A program made the translations under genes and the position numbers. From Undaria pinnatifida (Eukaryota > Sar > Phaeophyceae > Laminariales > Alariaceae), in the NCBI GenBank assembly GCA_012845835.1, contig JABAKD010000020.1:19637606-19701605 (forward strand): a DNA stretch of 64,000 nucleotides, read 5' to 3'. The notes beneath the pieces are model-generated. The model was not told the origin of the DNA. It made no database searches and saw nothing but the letters and a program-made list of their open reading frames with translations. Shown here in pieces: positions 9,354-47,100 of the stretch (its first letter is position 1; the number at the start of each line of letters is the position of its first letter).

Positions 9354-10961
9354 TGTCGCGACTCATGAGGCGGGGAGGAACACAAAGAGTGGTGCCGGTG
9401 AAATCAAGAAGATCATGATCGCCAGCAGTAGTATCCTGTGACCCTCCTCGTGAACGTCACACGCTATTACTTTGATGCGTCTTTGCGCCGGCGTTTTTTT
9501 GGTCGGTCGTCCATTGCGGTCGTGGGTAAAACATTGATAGAAAATGTAACGGGTTTTTATCACGCCTTCCATCTCTATAACAAACCTGGCGTGTTGCAAT
9601 TTTTGATTTTTTTCTTTCTTTGCCTCAGAACAACGTTGAAACAATAGCAGGCACTGGAAGGACGGAGGAAATACAGCAGCTACCAGGATGACGGTCATAT
9701 GCCTGGGCCCCTGCTGCATCCCCGTATCGGCATTCCTACCCCTTCTCCTGATCTTCATTTCTCCCATCCTCAGCCTTCTGCGAAAAACCCCGCTAGGTAT
9801 GTACGACAGGTTCATCGGAGGTTACTATAGCTTTTTTTTTTTTGAGCGCACTGCTTGTATGTAGGTACGTATTAGTCCTGGTCTATATAGCATAGTACCG
9901 CTGATATTAATAGTACAGACCATCACCACTCTGCCACTACAGCAACGGCAACAACGTTTACCTGGGGGTTTTACTACTGCTGTACCTGCGGCACCTGGTG
10001 CTGCTGCTGTACCTGGTGTGATCAAACGGTCGCCCTTGATAGCATGCGGCTATTTATAGAGCGTGACCTGTCCGACTCCTGGGTTGGACTACCCGTACAC
10101 GTAAAACATAAAATAGGGTACCACAGAGTACGAGTACTTGGTACTGACACAACCGATACTTGGTGTACAAACGCGTACAATACCAGCGGAGCAATATATG
10201 CGCAGATGCCAACCAAAATCCCTCCTCCCCTGCTGTCTCTTCTGTCTGTGTTGTCTTCTTCTACCCAACGACGTCAGTACAACCCAGTGTCCGTGCTGAT
10301 TCTTCATCCTAGAGAATGATACAAATTATGTGGTCGCATACTGACAAGAGTACACCAAACAGTCGCAATTCATCAAGGTAACAGGTAAAGCAAGTGAAAT
10401 GCTATACGTATAGCGTACCGGGTACGAGACCACAACAAAACAAGCCAGACCTGTACCGTCGTATTATTCGATTATTCCACGGTAAGTAAGACACTGCTGC
10501 TGGCTGTAGCTCTGGCTAGGACCTCGCGTCGGTACAGTAGCATCAGATAGTTGTGTTTGTCGTCAACTGTGTGCGTTGGTGGGAAGCTTTCTGCTGCTGC
10601 ATTCAGCTGCGGCTGCTGAGGTTCCCGATGATGTTGTGTTGAACAAACGAACGCGACCTGTTCCTCGGTTTGTTCTTTTTCGGAGATTCCGGTTGTCGGG
10701 CAGGACACGGAGATTCTGGCACGCGAGGCTGGCAACAAAGACGTCGGGAGACATGCCAAGCAAGGCAAACCGTGCTTTGTCAAGGATGTACGAAGTAGGG
10801 TGGAGCTGAGCGTTCCACCCTTTTGCGCTTTTTTTGTTTCTCGTCACTTTTTACTTTCCAGCTCAACCCAACCTCTTGAGAGTTTTTTCCCTCAACGACG
10901 TTCCGGACAAGCCGTGGTCACAGGTGTCGTCCCTTCTTCCCCCCGGTTCGTGTATATAACT
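9354..10961. other. Region between divergent genes, no supported gene
   Basis: Lies between the start of the minus-strand coiled-coil gene and the plus-strand thioredoxin gene, so it should contain at least one promoter and perhaps the missing 5' exon of the thioredoxin gene. No recognisable exon could be fixed. At 10,837-10,955 there is a decayed piece of SINE family 1 (TTTACTTTCCAGCT, GACAAGCCGTGGTCACAGG), cut on its right by the hAT-like element. CTG and CTT repeats occur near 9,960-10,015 and 10,590-10,620. Confidence 0.5.
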
Positions 10962-11427
10962 AGGGCTGTGAGTCGGTTTCATTTCACGGTTAATAACTAG
11001 TCGCTAGTCGGCTAGCTGACTTTAGTCGGTAAGCCGGTTGGCTTCGCCAGCCGACTTGCCCACTAAAGTCAGACGAGCGAAGCGAGCCAAAAAAGCCCCC
11101 CCCGGCCCCGCTGGAGGCGCCTCCGGAGGGCCCACCGGAGGATCCCGCTGAAATCGCCGCCGGAGACAATGAATACGCTATTTGGCTTCATTTTACACAA
11201 GAAAAGCGCAAAAAAGATTACCTAATTTAATAGATATTCGCATAAGTTTCAAGCGAAACAACAAAAAAGCTTCAGTTTGCATAAGAAATGCACAAGAAAC
11301 GACGAGTACAACGCATGTACCAGGTAAAATTACCCCTATTAGAGGAACGTGAAAGAAATTGCTTGAGTCGCGCCACACTACCTGGCGGGGATTCGAGCGA
11401 AAAAGCGAAAAAGCGGTGTAAAAACTC

Positions 11428-11539
11428 GTCACCAGGATAGCGGTGCAAAACTTATCCCCAGAACGTCACCAGGATAGCGGTGCAAAACTTATCCCCAGAA
11501 CGTCACCAGGATAGCGGTGCAAAAATTATCCCCAGAACC
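11428..11539. repeat. 37-bp unit repeated three times
   Basis: Three nearly identical tandem copies containing CACCAGGATAGCGGTGCAAA and TTATCCCCAGAA, inside the hAT-like element. Confidence 0.9.
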
Positions 11540-11564
11540 AAAGGTCTTGGATCCCTCCGTAATG

Positions 11565-12172
11565 TTATTCGCTCCCAACCTTGCGCGAAACGCGCGCGTC
11601 GATGACGACCGCAACTCCTAACCATCGATTATTGGGGCTGTCGATGATGAACCGAATCATCATCTTGCTCGTGAAAGGCTTGACGCCGTCCATGTAGGCA
11701 GTGATGCTCCCCGCATCATTCTCGCTCGAGGCCCCGCCACTGCCTCCACCTTTGTCATCCGCCCCACGCGCCTCATGTCCTTTCAGGGGTTCGCAATGCC
11801 CTTTCCTCTTTGCGTCTAGATGCTGCCTCAAATGGGTAAGAAACCCGAACCTAACCTCGGCATCGATCGGCGAAATCTCCGTTCGCCTCGCAAAGCTTGC
11901 CCACCGCTATGCCAGGGAGCGAGTCCTTGAGGTATATCATGAAAAACTTCCACAGCAGGTTGTTGGATCTGAGCGGCTTGCTGCGCCTCTACTGGTGCTT
12001 CATGCTTCATGCGGTTGAGCACCGTTTCGGGGTTGCGTGCACTCGCCAAGGTGGTCCGCGGGCCGATAATGGCCACAACGTTGCCGACGGGATCTCCGCC
12101 GTCAGCGTTGGCATTGGGTGCGCCAGGGCTGACGCCGTCGGCACCGTCGAGAGAGATGGGCTGTCCCGCCAT
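11565..12172 (-). pseudogene. Coding-like ORF pair inside the hAT-like element
   Basis: On the minus strand an ATG at 12172 opens a frame (MAGQPISLDGADGVSPGAP...) rich in Ala, Gly, Pro and Gln that runs to about 11,900. A second frame continues from about 11,880 to a stop at 11,565 (ISPIDAEVRFGFLTHLRQ..., later GVKPFTSKMMIRFIIDSPNN...). The two overlap with a one-base frame change, so the reading frame is broken here or spliced. I do not recognise a family. It could be captured host sequence or an unfamiliar element protein. Confidence 0.35.
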
Positions 12173-12425
12173 GTGTGCGTGTGTGTGGATCTCCCGCTGT
12201 GCGCTGCAGTGTCACAGGGCGTGTGAGGGGTATCCGCAGCCCGCAGCAATTCACGTTAAAAGCTGTACCCCGCATTTTGGCAACCGTCGTACAGTTGAGG
12301 AAACCCAACAAGTCGGAAAGTTGGCACCTCCGTTTCACGACTGACTACTAGTCCGATTATTAATATTCAGTAATAACTAGTCGGCTTAAGTTGTGCCGAC
12401 TCACAGCCCTATATACATCTTTTTT

Positions 12426-16100: not shown

Positions 16101-19088
16101 GCCGCTCGCAACATGTAGTGAAAGAGTGAATATTTGGTATGGTTTGGTATCATACTGACCCCCATGACCAGTGCAGTGGAACAGGGTGACATGGTGACAT
16201 GGCCATAATAAAATTTAACGCCCTCGGGCTGTCTCTAGGAGCAAAACTCGTATCGACCAATGACTGGTCTTACATTTTTTTCAATAATATTCGGGCTTTT
16301 TCCCAGCGGGGGCGAAACCAAAATTGCGCCGCATTTTGCACGATTCGGTTTGATGTTATCCAAGGCATGTCTGTAGAAAATTGCGCGCAAAAAATCGAAG
16401 ATCTGACCTGCCTGTGTTCAAGATTGTGCAGAATCTAGCGAAAAACTGGATCCTAGACTCTAACCGAGTGATTTGAAGGAACAAACGTATCTTACTCATT
16501 TTTACGCACCAAAGTCCAAACGTCCACGCCGTTTTAGAGAGAAGGACCCTGAAATTTTGCACACGTGTTCTACATGCCCATGCCGAGGCCTGACCTCCGG
16601 CCTTTTTTTTTTTCTTTGCCGAAAATGTTTGGTCTAAGGTGGGCCATATTTTCAAAAGAATCTTACCTGACGAAAAATCAGTCAAAAAATAAATAATAAA
16701 AAAATAGGAGGTCTTCGCAAGGGCACATAGAAGACTTGTGCAAAATTTCACGGTCTGAATAAAGAAAACGGCGTGGACATTCGCCGGGGGATAAATTTTG
16801 GTTATTTAACGTGAACCAGCCTGTACACCATTCGTATTGTTATCTTTGCACTCCAGCTTCAACGTCTATCACTCACAAACATGCCCAGGAAGAAGAAGAA
16901 TACCAAGGGGAACCGAAAAATAAACCCAAACCTATGCACGTAAAGTATAGGCCCCCAAGCAAAGCGGTGGTGTGGTGTGGTTTAGGTGGTAGATAGAACA
17001 ATATGACCGCCTTGTTGAGGGAAACCGCCTTTTCCATGTCGGGTTATGAGTGCATTTCCCGGTCACGCCAAGCGATTTTGACCGCCTTGAATCGGGACAC
17101 CGCCCTATATAGGGATACCGCCTTATATGGGGATACCGCCTTATATGGGGATATCGCCTTATATGGGAGACCCATACTATAGTGTACCTCCTTTTTTTTC
17201 AGTTGGTAGTTAAGCGCTGGGGATTTATTTGCGAGGTTATAATTTCGACGAGGTTAAGGTAGCGATGGACACCTTTCGAGTTTCGTGAGGCGTTCGCTGT
17301 ACAACGAACGAACACGACTTGATGACAGCTAGAAATGTCCTGCTGCGCAAGTTCCTAGCACCTGCTTATACCATATTTTTCAGGGCTTTTCACTGGTCAG
17401 GTCGCTTTTCGCGGGCCGGATCTGGTCAGCGTGGCCTGGCCTGACACGTGATAGCCAAGAAACCTCTTGACCCGACTCGTGACGTTTCGGAACACCTCCT
17501 GATCCGACCCAACTAGACCTGCGAGAACTTGAAAACCTCGTGATCCGACCGGCTGATCGGATTTTGACACGTGGAAAACCCTGATATTTTAAACCAATTG
17601 CCTGCTATCTGCTACCTGGTATGATACGTGGTTTTGTATGACAGGTCAACGCCGCTACTGATCGTGGATTTCACGGCGGCGTGGTGCGGTCCGTGCAGAA
17701 AGATAGGGCCCGTTTTCGAACGGCTGGCGACGGAGCACGCGGAATTGGCGTCGTTCGTAAAGGTTGACATCGACGATCTTCCGGACGCTTTCACCGGAAT
17801 CAGCATCCCGGCCTTCCATGTGGGTTAAAGGGCATTCTATTATGACATTGGACGTTACCTAGAGTCGACACCCCGGCCTTCCATGTGGGTTTGCCTGCGA
17901 AACGATGGATGGTTGTTGATCTACATGGTACATGGTACATGGTACGTGGTACGTGGTACATGGTACATGGTACATGGTACGTGGTACATGGTACATGGTT
18001 TGACTGTGCCCTTGAATCAGCATCCTGGCCTTGCCTGAGATGAGAGTTAAAAGCGTCAACAGTGCAGTGTGATGACGGTAACACGTATTCTATGATGTCC
18101 TATGTTCCATGTTCGTTAGACGGAATTATTAAGCCTATTGAGATTTTAGGGGGTGTTCGATGATGCAGTGTGATGACGGTAACACGTATTTTATGATACC
18201 CTATGTTCCATGTTCTTTAGACGGAATTATTAAGCCTATTGAGACTTTAGAGGGAATTAACGACGACAAAAACGACGAATACGCACGTCGTCGGCCACTC
18301 CTTGATTGGAAAATGAAAAGTTTGGTGTCCGAATTTGGTGTACGAACTGCAACGCGAAGAGTGTCATCTACTGTGGTGTCTTGAAACTGTCTGAATTGGT
18401 CTAATCTCACTACCACCTACCACACCTATGAACAACGTTGTTAATACCTTAGGCTGTTGTTCACTCAAAAACGCTATCTTCTAATCTCACTACCACCTAC
18501 CACACCTATGAACAACGTTGTTAATACCTTAGGCTGTTGTTCACTCAAAAACGCTATCTGTAACCCATGCTTCAAAGATGTTTTTTAAAACGTCACCGAA
18601 AAGCCCAACCCACGTCAACAGCTGTTAACAACGTCACCGAACAGCCAGATACTGTTGGCAGCCGTCAACGGGCAGGCTGTACGCCAGGCAGCTGCGCTCT
18701 TCGCGTGTATGATACGCCTGTATGCGTGCGTCTTGCTGATGGCGCTGCTGGGGGTGTTATCTTTGTTGCTACTAAACGAGTATCGCGATCTCCCTCTGCT
18801 GCTACTGCTTATGTGGCGTCGCGTATATACAACTCTGTATCACTCGGCGTAAATGCAGTTTAGATGTGGTTTAAACACTTTTGGGTAAATTTTGACACAG
18901 TCCAACCTATATGTTGAGTCCGTGCTTGTTGCCCTTCCTGTGCCCGTCCGAAGGTGTTTCAAAAAGGCCAGAAAATCGACAGTGTCAACGGAGCGATGGA
19001 GCAGAAGCTTCGGGAGCTGGTTGCCAAGCATTGCCAAAAGGGCGGCTCTTTGGACTCTTCGCCAGGAAAAACGACGAAAGTCTCTTAG
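13200..19088 (+). CDS. Thioredoxin-like protein, three exons, 5' incomplete
   Basis: Disulfide oxidoreductase of the thioredoxin fold. Exons: 13200-13338 (after TTTTAG, donor CG/gtaggg), 17645-17819 (after TGACAG, donor CAT/gtgggt) and 18954-19088 ending in TAG. Phases agree at both joins. Exon 1 gives an N-terminal tail with CCSDAAC and then NVKTVDSIEEWEDLK, the usual first strand and helix. Exon 2 gives LLIVDFTAAWCGPCRKIGP with the redox site WCGPC at 17682-17696, then FVKVDIDD and the cis-proline loop ISIPAF. Exon 3 gives VFQKGQKIDSVNGAMEQKLR, the final strands and helix, plus a Ser/Lys-rich tail. The loop after DIDD is a few residues shorter than usual. The ATG must lie upstream in an unidentified exon. 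The introns (4.3 and 1.1 kb) are full of transposons and duplications. Confidence 0.9.
13592..13722. mobile_element. Degenerate short inverted-repeat element
   Basis: Ends AGCGGGTTTCGCGGGTCGG and, on the right, AACCCGTGAAAACCCGCT, with repeated GACCCG inside. It resembles the hAT MITE at 17,381 but no clear target duplication is seen. A further fragment of this type is at 34,819-34,927. It lies in thioredoxin intron 1. Next to it, 13,779-13,850 has a 27-bp tandem repeat (GCTGGCGGAGTAGAAACCAA). Confidence 0.5.
14326..14625 (+). mobile_element. SINE family 1, diverged plus-strand copy
   Basis: Reads in the forward direction as tRNA-like head (GTCTGGTGGGTTAAG, GGTTCCAGCC), then GAGTGCGTATTCTTACTCGT, CGCGAGAGCGTGAGTTAGCA and an A-rich end. 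It matches in order, with many changes, the better copies at 15.3, 53.0 and 63.6 kb on the other strand. Confidence 0.6.
15264..15569 (-). mobile_element. SINE family 1, tRNA-derived, nearly complete
   Basis: On the minus strand it starts with GGTCGCCCCGGTGGCGTATC, containing an A-box-like TGGCGTATCAGG and about 40 bases later a B-box-like GAGTTCGAGCC, as in a tRNA gene. A body without an ORF follows, then a 14-base poly(A) (T run at 15264). The closest copy is at 63,578-63,875. This is the hallmark layout of a tRNA-derived SINE. Confidence 0.85.
15666..15866. repeat. (GGTGTT)n-type minisatellite
   Basis: About 200 bp of TTGGTGTTGGTGTT with interspersed GATGTTGATGGTGCTGGT units. The open frames across it (poly Thr-Asn or Leu-Val) come from the repeat and are not taken as genes. 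Confidence 0.95.
16053..16827 (+). mobile_element. 775-bp TIR element, copy 1
   Basis: Ends are inverted repeats of consensus TGTRCAGGCTGGTTCAMGT (17 of 19 matching). A second copy in the opposite orientation lies at 40,814-41,636 and shares the whole interior in order (CCCCCATGACCAGTGCAGTG, CATGGTGACATGGCC, GACAGCCC, CACGGTCTGAAT, GGCGTGGACATTCGC). No transposase ORF. No clear target duplication. Confidence 0.8.
16940..17195. repeat. ACCGCCTTATATGGGG repeat cluster
   Basis: At least four tandem units of about 19 bp (GGGATACCGCCTTATATGG) after looser GACCGCCTTG units, ending in ACTATAGTGTACCTCC. The style resembles the interior of the TA-flanked MITEs at 4.9 and 19.1 kb, so this is probably a decayed relative. 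Confidence 0.6.
17381..17583. mobile_element. 203-bp hAT-type MITE
   Basis: Begins CAGGGCTTTTCACTGGTCAG and ends with the complement of CAGGGTTTTCCACGTGTCA. The 8-bp flanks are ATATTTTT (17373-17380) and ATATTTTA (17584-17591), 7 of 8 matching, the target-site size of hAT elements. The interior is rich in TGACCCGA and GATCCGACC. It sits about 60 bp upstream of thioredoxin exon 2. Confidence 0.85.
17862..18000. repeat. Partial exon-end duplication and (GGTACATGGTACGT)n
   Basis: The end of thioredoxin exon 2 with its donor (CCCGGCCTTCCATGTGGGTT) recurs at 17,871-17,890, and a weaker trace is at 18,018-18,035. The same short stretch holds a GTACATG/GTACGTG microsatellite at 17,922-17,998. The duplicated piece is too short to be an exon. 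Confidence 0.75.
18059..18560. repeat. Two successive local tandem duplications
   Basis: First, about 90 bp beginning GCAGTGTGATGACGGTAACA occurs twice with a period of about 101 bp (18,065 and 18,166). Second, an 80-bp unit (18401-18480) is repeated immediately at 18481-18560 with one difference at its last base, which indicates a very recent event. Both lie in thioredoxin intron 2. Confidence 0.95.
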
Positions 19089-30515: not shown

Positions 30516-33500
30516 CTACATGGTTTCGTCGGAAAGGTCGGAGTCATCGTCGTGCAGGGCCCAAGCTTCGGCTATGGCGCCAGTAAGCTCTTCAGCGTCG
30601 ATGTCGTTGACGCACACCGCGTGGCCGATCCCATCCTTGAGGAGCGGCACGCGCTGCTTTCCGTGGCGGTGTTCCACGGCATCCGCCAGACCCTGACCAA
30701 CAAAGGCAACCACGCGAGGAGAAAACACGATTACAAAGTAGAAAACATCTTAAATAGCCCGCCAGTGCCAGTCAAAAACGGAAAACGCCTTTTACGGCCG
30801 CTAGGTAACCTCGGGAGGAGTAATGACTTGGTTATATTGGTGTAACAAGTAGCTCGTCAGTCGGCAAGGAAAGAGGGTCCCACCGGCGCAAGACAACCAC
30901 GGAAGAAACACAAGTTTGAAAAAAATAGAAGCAGTACGTAGCTGGCCGGTCAGCAAGGACAAGAAAACCCACGAAGAGAAACCATGAAAACAAAATAAAC
31001 GTTTGTTAGAAAGAAAAAGTAATTGATTCGAGGTCAGCAAGGCAAACAGGTCTTGCCAGCGCAGGTCGAACCTCGAAAATAACAATTTTGATCAAAAGTA
31101 ACACCAGGTACTATTATAAGTAGCTCGCACATCAAAATGGAAAAGGCCCCCTCTGTGGTCTGCAAGCACGGGAGGACTATAATTTGACGAAACAACCGCA
31201 AGCAGGTCGTCGTCACTCAGCAAGGGAAATTGAAAGGAAGGGAGCCCGCGAACAGCGACCGACGGGAGTTAAAAATAAAGCAACACACCAGGCTGTACAC
31301 ACGCCATGGGCCCTCCAATAAAAAAAAAAGCTCTGAGCAAGGTACAAAAATAAAATAAAACACACTATAGTCACACCAACCATGAGCATGGGGCGAAAAT
31401 ACAGGAGTCAGTGTAGCGCCAGCGCCCGCCGCAGTGCATGCCATATTTTTCAAGTATTGTTCCATAGCTTCCCCAAAACAGTGAGCCTCCTCCCTCATTT
31501 CGATGCTAGCTTGTTTCTTGTTTAGCAGCACCGCAATCTATTGTGTCTCCAGAATCCGCCCCGCAATCTCCACTCTGTCCTCATTCTTCACTAATACTAA
31601 GGCTGGCCTCACTGAAAAACTGCGCCTTCGCGGCGTAAAACAAAACAAGGTACTTGGTATTGCGCGAGCGCTAAGAGCGCTTAAATAAAGCTTCCTGCAC
31701 CAAAAGCGAACAACAGACCACCTGTACTATTAACAAAGCGCGAATGAATAAGCTGCCATACCTGGACGAAGGCCATCCCTTCCCTATATTGTGAACATTT
31801 TGAAACACGAAAAATGACCCGACACTCTGTTCTCTACCTGGCACATGCTTTCGCGTGTGTTGGACCGAATCGGGCTCGCTTTCGTAGGTGTACTTCCGGC
31901 CTTTTGGTAAGATTTTGGGAAACGGTAAAGTATCTAGACCCTTTCTTTCGCCAGGGGCATCGCTCAAAATTTTGGGCGTGTTGTCGCCTTTGGACATCAA
32001 AAGCAGGAAGGTATTTCCAGAGGTATTTCGTCGTTTCACTCCCTTGTGCAATCATCTTCTGAACATTATATTACACCAGGAGGTGTAGTTTTACAAAATA
32101 CAATACGACTGGGAGATAGAAGACTTCGTCGAAACTCATATCTGCAAGCTGTGCGTGATTGTGTGGTACGTACTCCGATCGTACGTGTAAGGGGTCTATA
32201 TATGTCCTCGTGAAGGATAACATCGGTCGGCGACTCCCCTTGGTGCCATTACTAGCTACTACCTACTACAGCAGTAACCTCAGGATCAACAGAGTGATCA
32301 TGCACGTAATACATATGGTCTACATATTTGTAACATCGGATGGTAAAACATGTATGTACTAGTACTCGTATAATTAGACTAGTCACCTTGACCATTAGCG
32401 CGAGCTCCACGCCCTCGTGAATGGTAGGTAGGCCGATGTCCTTCATCACGCGGAACACCCTGTTGAGTACCGCCTGCGAGATCATCCCACGGCGCTTGGC
32501 AATGACGAGGCATAGGAAGCCGTCCACGTTCACCGCCTCGCCGTGCATGATGTCGGCCGAAGGCAGCATCTCAATGATCTTGCTGAAAGTGTGCCCGTAG
32601 TCCACGCAGCTGGAAAATTCGACAAAAAAAAAAACAGAGCGCACCCTATGTCAAAGAATTTTCCAGGACAGCGAGGGAATAAAGCGAGAGCGCAAAATCC
32701 CGCAAAAAAAAACAAGAGACCCGACGACCTGGCCTGGCCGCCGCGCTGATATTTGAGGATAGCTTTAACGCCCTCTCATTGGCCGAGGGCTATGTGGTGG
32801 TCCGTAGATCGGAATATATATGTACTTTTTGTAATCGAACAGCGACGCAGCCGCGTTTCTCGTGCGTTTTTCGCACGATGTGGGTCCGGGTTGGGGTCAG
32901 GGTAAGGTTAGGGATTGGGTTGAGTCTACGCCCGTACTTTTATCCCATCCACAAGCGCTTCCTTTTCCCACGCTCTCTTTTACGACCTAGTGCTTTCCGC
33001 TAGTCATTTGTTTAGGCAACAAAAAGTCCCTACGAGCACGAGTATGCACTCGGGCGGATTCGGACTTGCATCATTGTCCTTAGCCGGGACGAGATTCACC
33101 TACTACTTCATAGGGGACGCCTTCTCTACACGCTCGAGTACCCGGGTACCAAATCTGGTTATGCTGGCCGTACCCGGGTATTCCAACCCACTCAAGTACC
33201 CGGGTAGTCCTACCCGGATATTCATACCCAGGTGAGTACCGAGGGGTAGTCATACCCGGGTACGTACCCGGGTATCCTCAGAAATGTACACTATGCCTCA
33301 CAGCCTTGCCAGGTTAAGGCAAAATCTACGGCACCGTCAAGGACGTGCCGTTTCCGTTTAAGCTGCGCGAAGAAGCCCATCCAACAGCAAAACTCACGAG
33401 GACGCTGTGCCAAGCACAAAACTCGTCAGGAAGCCCAACCCAATCACAAAACTCTCACGAAAGCTCAGCCAACCACATAACTCACCGCTCCAGCCTGTGC

Positions 33501-36500
33501 TCCCACAGGTTGGGCCCGAGCTCCTCCAGCATGATTTGCACCGACAGCTCGATCACACGGTCCGCCACACCATCAGTGCCCTAATTTTGCCGAGCGGCGT
33601 CGCGACACAGTGGAAAACGAACCGGTTGCTTCCGCGTTAACAGTGCAGATATATAATGCTGCAGCGGAACCTCGGGTCAATCTATGCAGGTAGAGTTGGG
33701 GAGGGTACTGCTACAACGGAAGAAAACCGAATCAACCAAGCGGGGATGGGGGGTGTGGGGGATGTACTACAATATAATTTCGCGCAGAGCCGTAGTCGTA
33801 TGATGTGGCCATTATTGACCTTCGCACCCCGACAACGCTGTGACGGAGCACATCGGATTTTTACGACACCAGGCAGACATCGCGTGCACCAGGCGCAGGC
33901 AGACATCGCGCGCACCAATCGCGAAGCGCCGCGAGGTGTTGGGCGAGTCGCAAGAAAGGTGAGCTGCATCCTACAAAGAACCACTTGTGAGGCGGACTTC
34001 CGCACCCTGTGCGTACTTTCTTGCGTATGGACGTCATCTTCGAATGGGTTTCTGTATTTTCTGGTGTGGCCACTTCCAGAGACAGCAATGGGTACCAGGT
34101 ATTAACTACTATGTCACCGCCTTGCGGGTGCCTTACCATATGCACACTACGTGATATCGTCATATCGTCATATCGTGATATCGTGATATCGTGATATCAC
34201 CCCCCTTGCGTCGAGTGAAGTTTCTCCACTCCGCACAGAATGATCTAGTATGATCTACTGTAACCTCCACCATCATCTCGGTTGCCGGCAAAACGTAAAC
34301 ACCAGAAAATAACAAAGACGATACCCTGGTGCTCAAGCTCACGTAGTGCGAGAAGGGGGTGGGAGGTGGGGGGGTAACTGTAAAAATGGCAAGCCGAATC
34401 AACTCAAGGGGGGAGGGGGCGGGGCATGGCTTCGGTGTACAACCGAAATCAACCTCAAGAGGGGAGAAGAAGAGTAAAAACCAAAAAATGAACTGGGGGG
34501 GGGGGGGGGGTGCATGAGCAAAGGATGAGCATAATGCCGCGGCTCCATTGAGACGCACAATTGTTACTGACCCTACAAGTAGACACGCTATTTTATACAA
34601 ATATTCTAACAACGTCAGCTGTGAGTTCGACAAACTTAGGGTCGATACCCATTTTTGCAAGCTGCGTAATACATGGGCCGTCCATTTTCAATAATTTTTC
34701 ATGAGCCAAAAGCTAGGTAAACGCTACCAGGTACCTGGTATTTTATAAAGATTGTTCTACCAACGTCAGCTGTGAGTTCGACGAATAAAGAGTCGATACT
34801 CATCTTTGCAAGCTGCGTCCTAAACCTCACGGGTCGGGTCAGGAGGTTTTCCAGTATCACAAGTTGAGACGGGTCATCCTGACACGATCCGACCGCGAGC
34901 AGTGATCCGACCCGTGAACAGCCCTGGAACTAGTAGCTCACTCGCTACTACGCAAGTTAATAGGAGCTCGCTCATCGCAACGTGTACACGTACGTGTAAA
35001 TCGGGCTTAGGTTTACAGCGCATGCTATTAATAGCAGTTGCGCAAAGATAATACCAGGTGCCAGGTACGAAGTATGTGCAGTATGCACTACCTACCTGGA
35101 AACGCTGGAGGACAAGACGGGGGCCGTGCTGCTCGAGCAATCCGAACAGCTCCGTGGACCGCACTAGCGCCAGCTTCATGATCTCTCCGAGGCCGTTGAT
35201 GATGTTGCGTTCGTCCTACGAATACGAACAAAAACAGAAAACAAAAACAAAAACAAAAACAAAAACCCGTTGGTTCCTATCGCTTAATCAACAGATTTAA
35301 TACGCCCCTCTTGCGTGTCCTAACGATGAGGCACGTCGCTCACATCATTACAAAAACACCCGCCCGGACGATTTCCGGTCGTCCTCATTCTTATTCTTAT
35401 TATTATCCGAAAACTTTGCGACGGTGCCCATTCTTCTTCTGCTTCTGTTTAGCCCTCCGACAGCGAAGCGTAGACGCCGTTCTGATGGAACGCGAGTTTT
35501 CTCCGCAAAGCAGTATTGATAGTACCTCTCCAGTGACTCTCTACCAACCATTCCCCAAATTTCCTTCCCCACATAATTTGATCTTTAGTTACTCGTACCA
35601 GCCAGGTAGAATTTGTCCTGTTGTTTAACCTCGGTGAGACTCGAGAGGTGACACACTGACTGTCCAAAATAAAAAAGACCATTACATTAGTCAGCAGGGC
35701 GCGTGAAGAACATATCCGAGTTGCTGGGGCAAAGGATGCGTCCGAACCGCAACTTAGGTGGGGTACATGGCTGTACTACAAGCGCGCAGCTTGGTAATTA
35801 TCATGCTTACTGCGAGCTCTCTCTTGTATCAAATAGGCGCTCGAAAAAATGTCGTACTCTTACGTTTTTTCGGGCCGTTGTGAAAAAAGGTCCTCCAATG
35901 AGATTCAGAGTGCAGCACTCGGACTGGGACCAGCGTTGGTGTCCCAAAAACTTTGGCACCGTGACTTCAAAACTTCAACCAACATGGTATCCGGTACTTC
36001 AACTTCAACTTCAACGAATGTTTACCGTAATAAAGCACCGTAAAAAGTAAAAAGCTTACCTGGCTGGCGATGAAAGACTTGTCCAGAAGAGCTCCCACGG
36101 GCGCATAGAACGTCCCCACGCGGTTCTTCTGCGGCCCCATGGAGCACGAGCAATAATCCACCCCGTTCTTCACCCCCACCGACGCGTCAACGAGCGAGAG
36201 AAGGGTCGTCGGGACGCGGACGAAAGGCACGCCGCGGCGGTAAAGCGAGGCAGCCATGCCGACAATATCCAGCAACACCCCACCGCCGATGGCTAGGATG
36301 GGCTCGCGGCGGCGGAGGCCGAAACGGCACAGCTCCTCCAAGATTTTGTCCACGGCTTCCATGCGTTTGTTGGCCTGGGTTGGGGGGCGTGGGGGGTGTG
36401 GGACGGGGGGGTAATGTTACCATGCATGGCCGTAGTAGTCCTTAGGGTCATAGGTCATACACCCTCGCCTGCCTACAATGCAGGGACCAGGAGCAAGTCG

Positions 36501-38104
36501 GGCTTTCACCGACCAGAGCGGGGGGGGTGTACTCAGTTTGTGCATGGCCGTAGTTGTATGACCATAAACCCTCCCATCCCTACTATGCCGGGACGGAGCA
36601 CCGTTGACCACGCATCCCTTTGGAGACGGAGCACCGTTCCTACTCCTAATAGAGACACCTCCAATATGTGGGCGCTCGTTACGCTTCTTCCGTATACTAC
36701 ATAGAAACTGTCTGCTTATCCTATCTCCGTCCTGTTTCGCCGTCTGCAGCAACCATCTATCTCCTAGGATAGCGATCGTTTTCTCGCTACTCTCTAGTAT
36801 ACCAAACTCTTCCGTGTCACATACGTCTAATTTCCTCATCACCCTCTAATGCATCCCGTTTCCTCCATGTATATTTCACATTCTCCTACTACTTGTACGT
36901 GAGTCCTACTCTCTAATGTTGTCCCACACGGACACATATTTGTAGCCACGTCCTCCTCCTCCCGACTATTGGTATATCTCTTTCTTCGTTCTGGTAGGTC
37001 CAAGTCCCAAACACGAAATCGCAGTTTTAGCTTTTTCGCGTAGACCATTGGGCCGTGCCGATACCTTTTCATTCCAATATCTTGCCTCAACCCCAAGTGT
37101 AACTCTAAGTGTTTCTCCTCTTCCACCTTATTTCATAGCGCTTGTCTTCCCCTTTCTTCTATTATTGTTTCTTTTACTTCTGTCTTGTACCCGCTAAACT
37201 TCTCTACTGACAGTACCTCTTCTTGGTCTTCCCCTATACCCTTCCATGTTTTCTCGACTGCGTCATCCCACCTTGTTTCAGCAAGTCCTCTTGTTATTTG
37301 TTATTTTCTCCCATACCTGGTACAGCATTATCAACTATGGCTGGCTGGCAACCTTTTTTCTGGCATATTCTTTGATTCATATTGTCATTTCACCTTTATC
37401 ACGTCTCTACTTGTTTCAAGTGGGAAAATTCCTAGTTCTGCTCTTAATACTGTATTACTCGTCATACTTGAGCAGCTGCTGTCATCTGCACTGTTTCCAG
37501 CTGTTTTGCGAACTTAGCGTTCTCTTCCCATACTTCTCCTGCATACTCTAACTTTGGTACAATCACATTCATCAGCATACACATTTTAATACTATTAATA
37601 GTGTCAAGGTGCGGGTCTGCTAGGATCGCATCCATCTTGCCTACTTGTGATCTACCTTTTCCCATTACTTTCGCCGTGTGTGCATCCCAAGAGAAGTCCT
37701 TTGAGATCTCAACGCCAAGGTATGTATATTGGTCTACAATCGGTAGTTCATCTTCTCCCCACTTCCATTTGAAAGAGGGGGGGGGGCGTACTCGTTTATT
37801 GCTTGCCTCAGTCGTTTGTCCATTGGCCACGCATCTCTTTCGAAACGAAGCACCGTTCCTACTCCTAATAGAGACACCTCCAACGTTTGGGCGCCCATTA
37901 CGCTTTTGCCATATGCTACATAAAGACTGTTTGCTTATCCTATCCCCGCCCTGTCTCGCCGTCTGTGGCCACCACCTATCTCCTAGGATAGCGATCGTTT
38001 TCTCGCTACTCTCTAGTCTACCAAACCCTTCCATGTCACATTCGTCTAACTTTTTGTCATCTCCTCTAACGCATCCCATTCCTCCTCGTGTGTTTCACGT
38101 TCTC

Positions 38105-38147
<43 letters not shown>

Positions 38148-41100
38148 ACCTACTACAACAGTATGTGAGTGCTACAGGGGGGTGATCGTAGTGTCAAGCA
38201 CGGCGCAGTCCTTGTACCGTATGATGATAGTTAGTGGTATCATAGTGGTATCATAGTGGTATGACTCTACTTGTAGCATCCCCACAACGTCGGAACGAGG
38301 CACACCCCCACATCGGGTTTTCACCGACCAGACAGACAGTGTTTGCAACAAGCGCGACCGCCGTGAGTGGGGTGTTGGGTCGGTTTCAAATACGGCAGGG
38401 GACGGCAGATCTGGGCCCCGTCAGTCACGCCTCTGGGAACCAACAGGCTAAAACTCCTTCATTACGTCTAGACGGCTGTCCGTCACACGTCACACGTCTA
38501 AAGTGCCGTTTCCTGACATCTGTGGTCGGGGGTGGGACTGGCGTCGAGGGGAGGGGGGGGGGGGGTATAGCGGGGGTGCCCCTTTAGGGTTGGGGGTGTA
38601 CAGCGGGTTTTGGCTTTGACAGCGGGTGTGGTAACTTCGGTAAGATGCAACTTTTTTCTGTACTGGTGCGGTGGGATTACGTCGTTCGCAGCCATGATTG
38701 ACGCCATCAGACCGAAACGTCTCGTTGAAACTTCAAGGACGGTGAATGTGGTGTGCAGCTTGCACCAGACGGGGAAAAAAAAAAAACAAGAAAAAATGGG
38801 CCATAGTAGTGACGACGCAATCTCCACAGGCACTATTATACCGCTGTCGTCACGAATACATCTCTTGAGAAGCGGACCACAAAACCCGGGCAAGGGGACG
38901 AGGGGACGTTTGGTTGGGAAAGCGAACTATTAATACCACATGCACCGATAAGACGAAGGGCGGGTAGAGGTTTCGGACAGGTGTTTGGTCGGCCCAAAAA
39001 AAGGCATGAAGCTACGACACTATTAACAGCAGCATTTACGTTAACATGTATGCATGGTACCAGGTATGTTTTAAGACACCATGGGTGGGCTTACCTCCTC
39101 TCCGGGCAGCACGAGGCGTTGCACCACCACGCCATGGTTGCTAAAGTTGGCGGACATCTTCGCGCCGTACAGGTTCTCCACTGCCTCGTCTGATTACGCG
39201 ACAGACAAAAATATCAACAAACATGAACAAGTTTCGTCAACGCAGGGAAAAAATCGGAACACAACGAATTGAAACTGCAAGGTCAGTACGCGACAGCACG
39301 ACAGCACATTAGCATAACGTCGATATAAAGAAAAATAAGCTCGGCCGAGGTTTTAGGCACGAAACATGAGAATAAATCGGAAAGAAAACATCACCATCCT
39401 CCAGCAAAGGCAGTGGCTGATGCTGATTTTGTAACCCGTGAGTGATTTGTTGTGGTCACTTTTGTCCTGTTCCTCCTCTCAAATCCAGAAGGAAACAATC
39501 GTAGAGTCTTACACCCCGGATAGATCGTGATCTAGATCATGATACAGATCATGATACAGATCAAATATACCTTCTAGATCATCTACAGATAGTCTAGATC
39601 ATGATACAGATCAAATAGACCTTCTAGATCATCTACAGATAGTCTACACTGTACCTGCCGTATGAGATGTTTTAATGAGATTTGTCGATCGTGATCTTCA
39701 TGAGATGTTGATCGTGATCTAGATAATCTGTAGTAGATCCTGTATCCGCGACTATGGCATGTCATGCCGGATCTATCTATCTATATAGTCTATACGTATA
39801 TAGACTATAGGATAGGATACAGTTCTAACCCAGGGTACAAGCGGAGATCGACGCGCGCAGAGCTGTTAACTTAGAACAAAAACGAAGCTCACTCCGACAC
39901 AGGCGATACAAACGCCTGCGCTCGTTGAGGTTGTCCTCCTCCGGCAAAATCCGATGCTATGTAATCGTGATTCGGTGTCGCCAACAATAGGGATAGATAG
40001 GAGGACCCCTACAACAGCAAAACCAAGCCCGACAAAAAAGGATGGAAACATAAATTGCCTGCGCGCGCCTACGTCAACCTCACTCCACGGAGATCTCAAG
40101 AGAGGAGACCCATTTGCCCGAGGGTATCATACTCGAGAGCGCACCGACCACCGCGGCAACGACCCCACATACATATTCAACAGTAACCACCACTACTGTG
40201 TAGAAAAAGAGAAAAAAAGTGTCTCCCACGTCAATTTCTTCGGGGTCAAGGGTAGGAGTAGTAGTAGTGTAGGTTATAGTGTAGGCTATAAACACATTTT
40301 ATCAATGTCGTCTTCCCTCTGCACGTTACTATGGCCGATAATTTTTCACCTGTTGGGCTGTGCACTTTCAAAGTTGCACCTGCTGCCGGGACTTTCAAAC
40401 AGCTGTTGTTGTTGTCACACCAACTCGTTGACAAGTCGCGTGAAAAACGTCAGTCTCGCACCGCCATCACCGCCATCACCGCCATCACAGCACCTCTTTC
40501 TTGAACCCCAGCCATCATGCACCTTTCCAAATGCTGGATGCTGGTGGTGGGCATCGCGCTCAAAAATTCCTCCTTTCAACTCGCCGACCTCCTGACCCAT
40601 GCCAAACCCCTGATCGCACGCACCTTCACGTAAAGTTAGTTACTATTAATACCAGGTACGAAGTAAAGGTCTTCTTCCTGTCTCCCAACACTTACTTCCC
40701 AGCCCTCATCTAATCTCTCCACAGACACAGCCAGCCCCCTTACATTACTTAGCTTTCTGGCCTTCTTCCCCATGCTACATGCTATCCCTTCTGGCACTTT
40801 TGCTTGTTTTGAGGCTACTGGTTGGTTCAAGTTGCAAGCCCGAAGCGTATTTCCCGGCGAATGTCCACGCCGTTTTGTCGATTCAGACCGTGAAATTTTG
40901 CACAAAGACCTCACCTGTGCGTGTGAGTGTTTTTTTGCCTGATTTTTAGTCAGTTAAGGTTTTTAGGAAAACGTGGAACCACCTTACTTAGATCAAACAT
41001 TTTCGGCGAAAAATAAGAAAATACCCCCCCCCCCCACCCCCGAGGCAATGCCTCGGGATGGGCATGTAAAACACGCGCTGTGCAAAAAATCAGGGTCTAT

Positions 41101-44100
41101 CTCTCAAAAACAGCTTGGACATTTCGACTTTAGTGCGTAAAAATGAGTAAGATGCGTCATTCATTGCCTTCAAAATGGCTTAGTTTTAGTCTAGGATCCA
41201 GTTGTTTCGCTAGGTTCTGCTTAATGTTGAACATAGGCGAGTCAGATCTTCGATTTTTGCTCGCAAAAAATTTACAGACATAATATATCATGCCTTGGAG
41301 TACTTTCAACCGGGTTGTTGTGCGGAAGAATGCGACGCAATTTGTTTTTCGCCCTCGCTTGGAAAAAGCCTTGAATATTTTCGAAAAAATTGAAGGTCTG
41401 TTATTGATTGGTAGAAGATACGAGTTTCGCTCCTATAGAGACAGCCCGAGGTCGTGAAAAAAAAGTGGCCATGTCACCATGTGACCCTCTTCCACTGACT
41501 GACTGGCAGCACTGCACTGGTCATGGGGGTCAGTATGATATCAAATATTCACTCCTTGACTCGATATTGTGAGGGGCATTCGCGGGGGAGATAATGGACT
41601 GCTTTTTACTTGAACTCGCCTGTAAAGACTTCAAATTGAATTTTTCTACTGCCGCTGCTGCTGCTGGTGCACAAAAAAACGTCACACTGGTTACGTTAGT
41701 ACTATGTACCAGAAAACTGTACTATATATAGTAGTATCTGGAAATAAATAATATCGAATTTGAAAAAGTCAATGTGGCAAACGCCACACACACACGGAGA
41801 AAATTCAGTTTTTGCGCAAAACCTCCGATATATATCCTTATTTATTTTGTTTAAAAACTACCAAATAGCCCATCAAACACTCTACCAAGTGCCATTGCTG
41901 CTGTAGACTGTGTATGTATGTATGTAGCAGCCTGCTTGCCGTGAGTGTTGTATTTAGCTGGAATTTTCCAGCCATCTAGATCTTCACGTACCATGTACCA
42001 GGTATTTTTCGCCGGGTAGGTTGTCTTTTGTGCCGGCTACCTACAGCGCAGCAAGAGTACCATCTTAAATGCCTGGTAGTTGCTGCTGTGAGCAGTGTCA
42101 GCAGTATTCATACCAATAATAGTAGTGGGGTGCTGTACTGCTGCTGTACTGCTGCTGAATACACTGCTGTATCAAATGCATCAAATGTGCTGAGCACACA
42201 CAACAACAGTTTTCTGGTTGTATGTTGCTCCCGAATGCTTACGCCGGTTACATGAAAGTCGCCGCTGCTGCGGTAAACTCATCATTGTGTGCAGCAGGTA
42301 GACTGAAGCAGCAGATAGTCTACATCCCTACACTTTCCCTTCGATAAATGTTGTAAAGCTTAGTTTGGGTAATAAGCTATTGGTTAACCTTTTGCAAGTG
42401 GTCAAACGGACTAATACCCCACGAATAACTTTAACAAATGGCGTCGTCGACAGACCATTTTTTTTTGGGTCGTGGGTTCAAATCCCACATCCACCATGAA
42501 TAAACTTTTTCAGACTTTCCCCATGTCGAACTTGAAAAATACTCTCCCCGGTATCCCCAGGGAATGAAACGACTTGGATGTATTGACAGGTCCGCCCGTA
42601 TATCCGGCCGACCTGCTACCCCGCCGTTTCAGGGGGGGAGAGTGTTATATAAGGCTTAGTTTGGGTAAGCTATTGGTTAACCTTTTGCAAGTGGTCAAAC
42701 GGACTAATACCCCACAAATACCTCAACATAATAAACCTGAACTATTTACATTGCAGTATCTATAAACTTATACCTGGTTAAAATTCTAGTCTATATTAGT
42801 CTATATTAGTCTATATAAATGCACTACCGGTGGGGTGCCGGCATTAGAGGGGGTGCAAAAAATCAGCAGCCTTGCGTCACTCTTTTTGCAGGTGGTCAAA
42901 CAAACCATTATTAATAATATCCTCTAATTCTTAAACGTCGTCGGCAGGACCGTGGGGTTTCGGGTCGTTCTAAAGGAGTAGCCTTGATGACCCCCAGACG
43001 ATATGATCCGCAGAAGGGGCACAGGACCTTAGGTGTGTCTATCGGTAGACCACAGCAGTCAGCTGTGTAAAACCCAGACAGATACAAGTCTCTTATTATT
43101 ATCATCGCGCAAGGCTTGCTTCATTTGGGTACTACTACTACTGTCGTGCTATAGACCTATATGTATGTGCCTATTCCTGGACCGTACGTCAGTTTCGTAA
43201 GCACACTGACTGGAGATTCCGAATCCCACGGCCGATTCCGAATGACACGACAGTTGAATGACGGAAATCAGACCTTAATTGACCAGCAGGGATGGACGGT
43301 TGGTCTGTTGCTCATGCAAATAGCGCATACTGGGTGGCCCACCATAACATTAGCCCACCCTGAATAGTTGTAGATGCAGATTACACGACGATAAACCGAT
43401 GGCTAACTAAGACATCAGGAAATCGGGAAGTGGATCGAAGATATTGCTATTCAAAACAACGACAGCAAAGGAGGCTATAGACCAACCGGGTTTGAATCCC
43501 ACCATCCACCAATAATAAACTTTTACGATCTTTCCCATGTCGAACTTGAAAAATATTCTTTCCGGTATACCCAGGAAACGAAACCGCTTGAATATTGACA
43601 TTTCTGCCCGTATTTCCGGCCGACCTGCTATCCCGCCGTTTCAGAGGGGAGGAGTGTTGCAAGGCCTACTTTGGGTAGGAAATTGGTTTACCATTTGCAC
43701 GTGGTCAAACGGACCAATACCCTTTAATCCCTTAACAAATGACGTCGTTGGAAGGGGAGCCTTGTAGTCTAGACTACCGTGGCACTGCGGAAGGTGGTTG
43801 TTACTACAACAAGAATCGGGCATCATATAATATATATATATATATATATTTCGGTCAGTAGTCTGAATGGCCAATGGCAGGACAGGAAACCTAATAAGAT
43901 ACATAAGAACTGACCTAGACTGAGTTTCTTATTTCGGAGAGGGTGCGTTGTACACTAACTTCACCATAACGGCCGAAGCATTTCTTAAACTGCTGCAAAT
44001 ATCACCCTGGCGTTCTTGTCACCCTGGTTCATGTTATTAATACTAATACTAATACTAATACTAGTACTAATACAAGTAGTTGTCCTCAATTGTAGTTCGA

Positions 44101-47100
44101 CCACTAACGGAAAGTGGTTGTTACTCCTCAACTACTCCTCAACTACTCCTCAACTACGCCTCAAACTACTCCTCAACTACTCCTCAACTACTTTCGAAGA
44201 CTGACCGAGTGACGCCCGATTGATTCATAAAATACTAACAACAACCATCTTCCGTACCAGGTACCGTGGTACTGCCGAAGGTGGCTGTTTGGTAGTATCA
44301 TAGCTAGTTGAAGTTGAAGTTGAAGTTATTCAGATTACTGACCAAAAGTTATTATACCCGGTTCTTGTTAACAACCAACAATGTTCAGTCACTTGTAGTA
44401 GTAAAGAATCGGGCGGAAATATAGGTAATTTTTTCCAAATAACGCCAGGATGTCTCTAGAGCTCTAAAACCACTCCCTGTACTAACTCCAAACATTGTCC
44501 CAAAAACGGGTTTCCAGCTGTAGAGTCGTTAAATGAAGTCGCTGCGCATAGATGGAGTGGTCGTTGCTGAGCGAGAGCATCGTGTGAACCACGCTCTGCA
44601 ACATTTTGGCCCACCCAGCCCACCCAGCGTCAAACCCCTTCAAAATTTAGCATGGCACCGATTTTTTTGTGAACAAACCCGAGAGTTTTTGAACATTTCA
44701 CCATTTCACCATTGCAACTCAACGTTTTAAACCATCACATCGAAAGCTCATAAGCTTCAACTCGGGCATTCTTGACACTCTGGAGAGACCCACCGCGGCA
44801 AAAACAAGCAAAAACAAGCAAAAACAAGCATATCCCACCCTGCGGCAAGCGCGCGTCGCGAGGGCGTATTGAACGTAACGCTCACCGATGACGATGAAGC
44901 GACGGCGAGGTCCCCCGTCCGGCAGAAATCGGCACGACAGCGTGGCCGAATCCGGCTGAAGCAGGCCAGGGCACAGCTCGACATCGTACTCGATCGGCAG
45001 GTCGAAGACGTTGCGCCAGCCGAGGACCTCACCGCTCTTGCCTCGAAACACGAACACGTTGTCAGGAGCGCGCGCCAATGGCTCCGGCTTGGAGTAGGTG
45101 TAGCCGTTCATGGGGCGGAGGCTTCTTGCGAGGCCCCCTGCGATGCCCCCCCCGGGCACGCTGCAACGCGTCAATAATAATATATGAGTTAGTAATGTGT
45201 TGGAATATTGTAACAATAAAATATACTCCAGCTGTGAGATCGAATGTTTTGTCGAAACTCATCTTTGCAAGCTGTGTGTGATACTCCGATCGCGCGTAGT
45301 ACTGGGAGTGTGTCCTCATTAAGGATATGGGTCGGCGACTCCCCTTGGAACTACAGTGTAGCTTGTACCAGGGTCAACAGGGTGATGTTAGTCAGTATGT
45401 GCGCGGAAACTATAGAACCCGTTTGGAGGGGGACAAAATCTGACAGCTGTGGAAGGAAATGCATCAGTTTATCAAGACTTAAGCATATCCTGTAAGTCGT
45501 ATAACCGGTGAGGGAAGGGCGGAGTTTTTAAGGGCGTGGGGGCCTGAGTTGAACAAGAGGGAACGGGGGGGGGGGGGGGGGAGGGGGAAACGGGCGGGGC
45601 AACTCAATCTGTGCGCGGAAACTATAAATCCGTTAAGGGAACAAATCTGACGGTTGTGGAAGGAATGCATCAGTTTATCATGTATATCCTGTAAGTCGTA
45701 CAACTGGCGAGGAGAAGGTGGAGTGTTCGAAGGCTTGAGGGAGAGGGGGGGGAAGGATTTCCAACAGCTTTATGTCGCATAGATGTAGGGGTTTGCTATA
45801 CGCGTGGTGCTAGGTCTGGGCGATGGTGCGGGTGGTGGGGAAGGAGGGGGTGTTGGGGGTGTTTGGGGGGGGGGCGAATTAGAGCTACAGCATGGATGGC
45901 TAGAAGGATAGTGAGGTGATATCAAATGCGTGGTAGTTTTTATTGCTCTGACATACTTCGTTTTTAGGTGGGGCGTTTGAACAAGAGGGAGCGGGAAAAG
46001 AAAAGGAGGGGGGGGGGGGGGGGGGGCGGAAATTAATTGGAGCTACCACATGGATGGCTAGAAAGATAATGAGGTGATACCAGTTGCCTGGTAGTTTTTA
46101 CAAGGGCTCCACTCCATGGGCGGCTGACGCCGCCCGCTACGCTCGCGCAAGGAAGATTTCAACTATTAATAATAAATGTGAAGGGTGCAGAAAGAAGAGG
46201 CCCATGATTTAGTGCAACTAGCGATTTGATAATGCCAAGAGCTAGTTGTGCGGAGCTGATTGCCCCGTCTGTGCTGTGCTTTTTATGTTGGCGATGTCAC
46301 GTTCTGATCGGCAGTAGTACGGGTGTAATTTGCGAAGAAAAAATCGCGAAGAGGACCGAGATGGTGAACAAAACCAACCACGAAAAAGCAAAAAGACGAG
46401 TACACACACATACCGACGGTACCTGGTACCTGGTACTTCGCCCAATACCTGGTGGTACTCTGTGTGGTTCTAAAGAAAGCACAGGGCTCTGCTCCGCAAG
46501 GCTGCTGACGCCGCCCGCTACGCTCGCGCAAATAAGAATGCAACTATTCAATAACTGAAACATGTAAATAAATGGGGCAGGAAAAAGAGGCCCGTGATTA
46601 TTTGGGGCGAATAGCGAATTGATAATAATGCCAAGAGGTGCTTGTGTAGAGCTAATTGCCCTGCGCTGTGCTGTGCTTGTTGATGTCACGTTCTGAACGG
46701 CAGTACGTGCGATATTTGCGGGGGGGGGGAGACATGGGGACCGAGAGAGGACAATCATCTGAAGAAAGCAAAAAGACGAGTACACAAAACACGTACATAA
46801 ACCTGGTATCTGTATCATACCTGGTACTACAACTACTACTAGTAACTGCTGCCGTATGTTCAAAAGAACGCACAGCGCCGCACGACGAAGCATCGCAAAA
46901 CGAAGCGCAAGGCACGGCACCGCGCTGCGTTGCGCTGCTGAACTATATATAGCCGTGCTGAACTGAGCTGGGGGTGCATTGTTTGTGATCCAATAACAAC
47001 GTCATATGTACAAACCTGGTGTAGTATTAATAGCACCTGTACGTGGTATGATACTTCGAATATTATTGGCATGTACGAACTAGTAAAAAAGTACAGCAAA

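Follow-up and report, generated by a model that had tools for sequence, protein, structure and literature searches.

In a window of 64,000 nucleotides from the brown alga Undaria pinnatifida (assembly GCA_012845835.1, contig JABAKD010000020.1, positions 19,637,606 to 19,701,605), we found what is, on the sequence, very probably an intact gene for a sedoheptulose 7-phosphate (S7P) cyclase of the 2-epi-5-epi-valiolone synthase (EEVS) type in a photosynthetic eukaryote. Enzymes of the EEVS type close the ring of a seven-carbon sugar, which is the first step toward natural sunscreens and related compounds.

Gene structure

On the minus strand, from 45111 to 30516, seven exons are predicted to join into a single frame of 416 codons and a stop. 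All six introns begin with GT and end with AG, the phase is consistent across every junction, and the joined frame has no internal stop and a GC content at third codon positions (GC3) of 0.81. The exons are as follows (positions of the window).

Exon 1, 44886..45111, minus strand: probable start codon and N-terminal region; donor GTGAGC; the match to ValA starts at residue 31 in both proteins
Exon 2, 39095..39189, minus strand: DEAVENLYG...PGEE; acceptor AG, donor GTAAGC
Exon 3, 36060..36374, minus strand: NAD loop GGGVLLD, YRRG, catalytic lysine, KNRVGTF; PF01761 above the family cut-off; also a five-residue insertion and the T-to-N and N-to-D changes
Exon 4, 35096..35215, minus strand: NGLGEIMK, including the Glu metal ligand E223
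Exon 5, 33486..33580, minus strand: MLEELGPNLWEHRLER, an EEVS-type signature
Exon 6, 32387..32609, minus strand: VDYGHTFS (diagnostic Asp D287, His ligand H290) and MHGEAV (His ligand H306); PF24621 at 47 bits (cut-off 27.6)
Exon 7, 30516..30692, minus strand: EHRHGKQRVP with the diagnostic His H366, C-terminal VNDID, stop codon

The in-frame methionine at 45111 is the putative start. The open frame extends upstream of it to 45258, and an additional exon may lie upstream of exon 1. With ValA as the query, five open reading frames (ORFs) of the real 14.6-kb stretch matched at E <= 0.01, the strongest of them at 4.2e-27; when that stretch was shuffled 100 times by a first-order Markov model, no match came up. 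A preliminary description of this DNA had proposed the same seven exons, with these coordinates and joined in phase. The agreement of splice sites and phase, together with the shuffle control, indicates that this exon set is right. In the second intron, long ORFs at 36417-38094 (minus strand) resemble by eye the pieces of a decayed retroelement, which may explain the length of the intron; a Pfam scan of three of these ORFs gave no match at E <= 0.1.

Family membership and catalytic residues

The joined 416-residue protein matched PF01761 with 109.4 bits (cut-off 24.2) and PF24621 with 72.3 bits (cut-off 27.6). Among solved structures the best match was ValA (314 bits, residues 31-398, E 1e-92), followed by the desmethyl-4-deoxygadusol synthase (DDGS, also MysA) structure 5tpr with 202 bits and then by plant 3-dehydroquinate synthase (DHQS), all DHQS structures scoring 131 bits or less. 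It should be noted that the structure listing names 4p53 'Cyclase' and 5tpr '3-dehydroquinate synthase'; the latter we take to be DDGS. PDB 4P53 is identified as ValA, the EEVS of Streptomyces hygroscopicus, in the available part of PMC4426668. The NAD loop, lysines and three metal ligands named in the preliminary description are all present: the GGGVLLD loop, K176, K190, K226, E223, H290 and H306 were conserved in the alignments to both ValA and DHQS. We assume for the lysines and for the metal-binding Glu-His-His set the roles that they have in this family.

The algal protein shares with ValA 46% identity over aligned columns, the metal ligands, the diagnostic Asp and His, and a PNLWEH segment. 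It differs in being encoded by a eukaryotic, intron-bearing gene, in the Asn and Asp of its lysine loop, and in a five-residue insertion. Identity to the DDGS proteins of the same S7P cyclase family (PDB 5tpr; Nostoc HK-01, L016) was 32-35%. With DHQS it has the superfamily, the NAD loop and the metal ligands in common, whereas identity to the eight DHQS-labelled rows of our alignment was only 25-32%.

Phylogenetic placement

Scans with the single protein found no close relatives in the genome_contigs or viral_contigs collections. A query made from a five-protein alignment matched 265 stretches, 185 of which were relatives; the best 80 of these 185 were used, and all 80 were bacterial by record title. 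On viral contigs the alignment query found a relative in one of 73 stretches. Identity of the algal cyclase to the relatives found was 48% or less. The single viral relative (IMG/VR contig IMGVR_UViG_3300032332_001684; L116:3333-6732) is an EEVS-type cyclase with 39% identity, and its diagnostic sites read VDFGH and VIKHR. Lined up with it are an NTP_transferase ORF, an ORF resembling a kinase (its Fructosamin_kin match stays below cut-off) and an SDR, and the whole row lies upstream of a DNA ligase; possibly it is a phage-borne C7-cyclitol cassette. Among 50,697 phage records, 14 matched the viral cyclase at about 26-30% identity, four of them annotated as 3-dehydroquinate synthase and ten unannotated.

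Contig relatives, plasmid records, PDB chains and other loci supplied the rows of the trees. Of 103 aligned proteins, 47 entered the first tree, near-identical rows and four second copies (L111-L114) being omitted. For the second tree, of 45 rows, the DHQS-labelled L109, L110 and L115 (the last with a very long branch, 6.79) were removed and the viral row was added. The DHQS label of L108, L109, L110 and L115 means the other PF01761 match in a genome that also holds an EEVS-type gene, and nothing more. Two of the EboD rows (L106 and L103) adjoin genes annotated ebo, and L104 adjoins a TatD-family gene only. L015 is a cyclase of unassigned type.

The algal cyclase fell within a clade of EEVS and DDGS, in the 47-row tree with support 100/99 (starred) and with its sister unresolved, and in the 45-row tree with support 100/98. 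Forcing it to group with DHQS cost 49.5 log units (approximately unbiased (AU) test, p 0.0003), and forcing it to group with EboD cost 43.7 log units (AU p 0.0019); an EboD-type cyclase is ruled out by the latter test. Within the reach of sequence comparison, this settles that the predicted protein is an S7P cyclase and not a DHQS. The grouping with DDGS was not rejected, and so the trees decide between S7P cyclase and DHQS and do not decide between EEVS and DDGS. The phylogeny that the preliminary description had pointed to was thus obtained in part: the cyclase stands outside DHQS and inside EEVS and DDGS, whereas these two are not separated, and both trees are without EVS, DOIS, aminoDHQS or eukaryotic EEVS rows.

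EEVS-diagnostic residues

Since the trees alone failed to separate EEVS from DDGS, the choice was made from residues. The two diagnostic sites are an Asp and a His, ValA numbers 281 and 360. The algal protein has them as D287 and H366, and none of the 84 EEVS-type rows departs from either residue. At the same sites both DDGS rows carry Ala and Thr, and all seven DHQS-labelled rows carry Asn at the Asp site. That two sites distinguish EEVS from DDGS is stated in a legend in the available part of PMC4426668. The residue pattern of DDGS is therefore excluded for the algal cyclase, and an inspection of subfamily-specific active-site positions, as foreseen in the preliminary description, gave EEVS-type residues at both. 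More broadly, and as a stand-in for the 14 fingerprint residues of the active site given by Kean et al. (2014), we took the 27 columns whose residue was at least 95% conserved among the 84 EEVS-type proteins but found in neither DDGS row; the algal protein matched 23 of them, the diagnostic Asp and His included. One of the four missed columns adjoins the catalytic lysine and three lie near 300-305.

The separate DHQS-like gene and genome context

The genome searched comprised 511,146,479 bases in 68 contigs. It contained 61 matches to light-harvesting families, and the host is therefore regarded as a phototroph. On one contig (C27:1403056-1516962) light-harvesting exons form a run over about 114 kb that resembles a local gene array. 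The PF01761 search of the genome returned one exon of the cyclase gene and two exons at a single locus of contig C2, and a search with the cyclase protein returned the seven exons of its gene plus a single exon on C2 (all nine candidates were scored). One copy of the EEVS-type gene was found. The sequence encoded by the C2 exons looks like that of a DHQS, and both trees pair it with plant DHQS (100/99 and 99/98).

Evidence against the assignment and alternative explanations

Several results weigh against an ordinary EEVS. All eight matching NCBIfam models scored under their own cut-offs, the top one being aroB (198.8 bits versus 305). Forcing the cyclase with DDGS cost only 2.9 log units (p 0.40), and a clade of EEVS with the cyclase and without DDGS was not recovered, although forcing it cost only 3.5 log units (p 0.143). 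The tree tool warned of the long end branch of the cyclase (1.58 in the 47-row tree, 1.2-1.6 over both), of other long rows, of uneven letter composition and, in the 45-row tree, of a meeting of long branches. The test on 27 columns is partly circular, because the EEVS-type rows other than ValA, none of which is known to have been characterised, were collected by similarity. Finally, the loop by the catalytic lysine reads KNGVDY instead of KTGVN: Asn replaces a Thr found in 82 of 83 relatives, Asp replaces an Asn found in 83 of 83, and the five-residue insertion that follows is missing from all 83 bacterial relatives. With such substitutions and an insertion beside the catalytic lysine, the product may differ.

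These departures bear above all on the idea that the enzyme is an S7P cyclase whose divergence in this loop gave it another product, such as 2-epi-valiolone, a DDGS-like diketone or a new stereoisomer. The long end branch, the inability of the trees to tell EEVS from DDGS affinity, and a comparison set that has neither EVS nor eukaryotic EEVS sequences would all fit with it. However, both diagnostic sites and most of the EEVS-specific columns are retained, and Asp at the second changed position also occurs in a Xanthomonas DHQS, which suggests that the fold can accommodate the N-to-D change by itself. On balance we consider such a product unlikely. That the cyclase is the shikimate 3-dehydroquinate synthase of the organism, detached from the AROM protein, is hardly credible. 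The superfamily is the same and aroB was the top NCBIfam model, though well below its cut-off; yet the grouping was rejected by the AU test, Asp stands where the DHQS-labelled rows have Asn, and the C2 gene pairs with plant DHQS. On these three grounds a shikimate DHQS or a part of AROM was ruled out as a candidate, and the view of the preliminary description, that the gene is of the S7P cyclase type, stands. Bacterial contamination, or a decayed and non-expressed transfer, might be suspected from relatives that share 48% identity or less and are, apart from the one on a viral contig, bacterial. This too is highly improbable, as the gene has six introns, lies on a 20-Mb contig that bears thioredoxin, TMEM260-like and MatE matches nearby, and retains an uninterrupted frame with the GC3 of 0.81. 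An intact EEVS-type gene thus remains the explanation that we prefer.

Neighbourhood and partner genes

The GC content of the window was 0.45-0.50. Pfam scans at E <= 0.05 covered 134 ORFs of the window and 66 ORFs of the flanks (about 20 kb on each side, about 104 kb in total). No methyltransferase or ATP-grasp family was seen among these ORFs in a scan so insensitive that it detected two of the seven exon ORFs of the cyclase gene itself; a multi-exon partner could therefore escape it. By contrast, the eukaryotic EEVS genes of the gadusol pathway (zebrafish LOC100003999, Aureococcus and Coccomyxa) adjoin MT-Ox, according to the available parts of PMC4426668 and PMC7826186, and no such neighbour was seen among the ORFs scanned here. 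What the algal gene shares with these genes is that it encodes an EEVS-type cyclase in a eukaryote; Aureococcus is, like the brown algae, a stramenopile. Pfam assigned proteins of Nostoc HK-01 to ATP-grasp_3 and Methyltransf_3, and their gene order suggests that they are MysC-like and MysB-like, respectively.

The convincing matches among the neighbours were a thioredoxin exon in the window (17625-17825, plus strand, PF00085, E 4.8e-14) and, in the flanks, a TMEM260-like ORF on the left (L020, E 1.3e-13) and MatE on the right (L021-L022, E 1.8e-4), the flank ORFs being assigned by eye. Among the weak matches (E 0.0055-0.05), PMT_2, Nitrate_red_gam and US10 came from the flanks, and the window gave Sirohm_synth_C and several more. 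The Fe-ADH matches map to exon 3 of the cyclase gene. On the minus strand at 1866-12211 of the window, several coding-like ORFs resemble coiled-coil exons by eye and perhaps belong to one gene; two of them, scanned singly, matched no Pfam family above cut-off.

Predicted reaction and biological meaning

From what is known of the family, we infer the substrate, cofactor, reaction course and product. The cyclase would bind NAD+ and a divalent metal, with a Glu and a pair of His as the metal ligands. S7P, presumably supplied by the Calvin cycle, would be transiently oxidised, lose its phosphate by elimination and then be reduced. Ring closure by aldol addition would give 2-epi-5-epi-valiolone or a near stereo-relative. 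The best-known eukaryotic fate of this cyclitol is gadusol or a compound with a gadusol core, and the role in a UV screen to which the preliminary description had pointed is plausible here, but the ORFs scanned around the gene showed no partner for it.

Stramenopiles with EEVS are reportedly listed in a survey of 2017. In the available part of PMC4426668, EEVS together with MT-Ox was reported in 2015 from vertebrates, a stramenopile (Aureococcus) and the microalga Coccomyxa, its distribution among eukaryotes was patchy, and algae were proposed as the source of the vertebrate gadusol genes via gene transfer. The preliminary description had presented a C7-cyclitol-type cyclase in a eukaryote as notable in itself; the eukaryotic gene appears real, whereas its occurrence is less surprising than was implied, given those published cases. 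Our literature search on EEVS or S7P cyclases of brown algae found nothing beyond PMC5133447, the available part of which deals with EboD in eustigmatophytes, and searches on biosynthesis genes of mycosporine-like amino acids (MAAs) in Phaeophyceae, or on brown algae with EEVS and sunscreens, found nothing; neither result shows an absence from print.

In one recent survey, as far as its available part goes, gadusol was undetected in the algae examined, brown algae included. We may tentatively imagine, while holding it to be rather doubtful, that brown algae have a C7-cyclitol pathway with an end product other than gadusol. Its cyclase would descend from EEVS, have a remodelled loop beside the catalytic lysine and be encoded away from the genes for MT-Ox and MAAs, and it might supply an undescribed cyclitol (an osmolyte, a glycoside-like signal or a defence compound) in organisms with few or no detected MAAs and little or no detected gadusol. 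With its complete EEVS-type gene, this brown alga extends the lineage map of eukaryotic EEVS. With such a gene probably present, and gadusol undetected in the algae covered by that survey, the question of which C7 cyclitol brown seaweeds make becomes a testable one.

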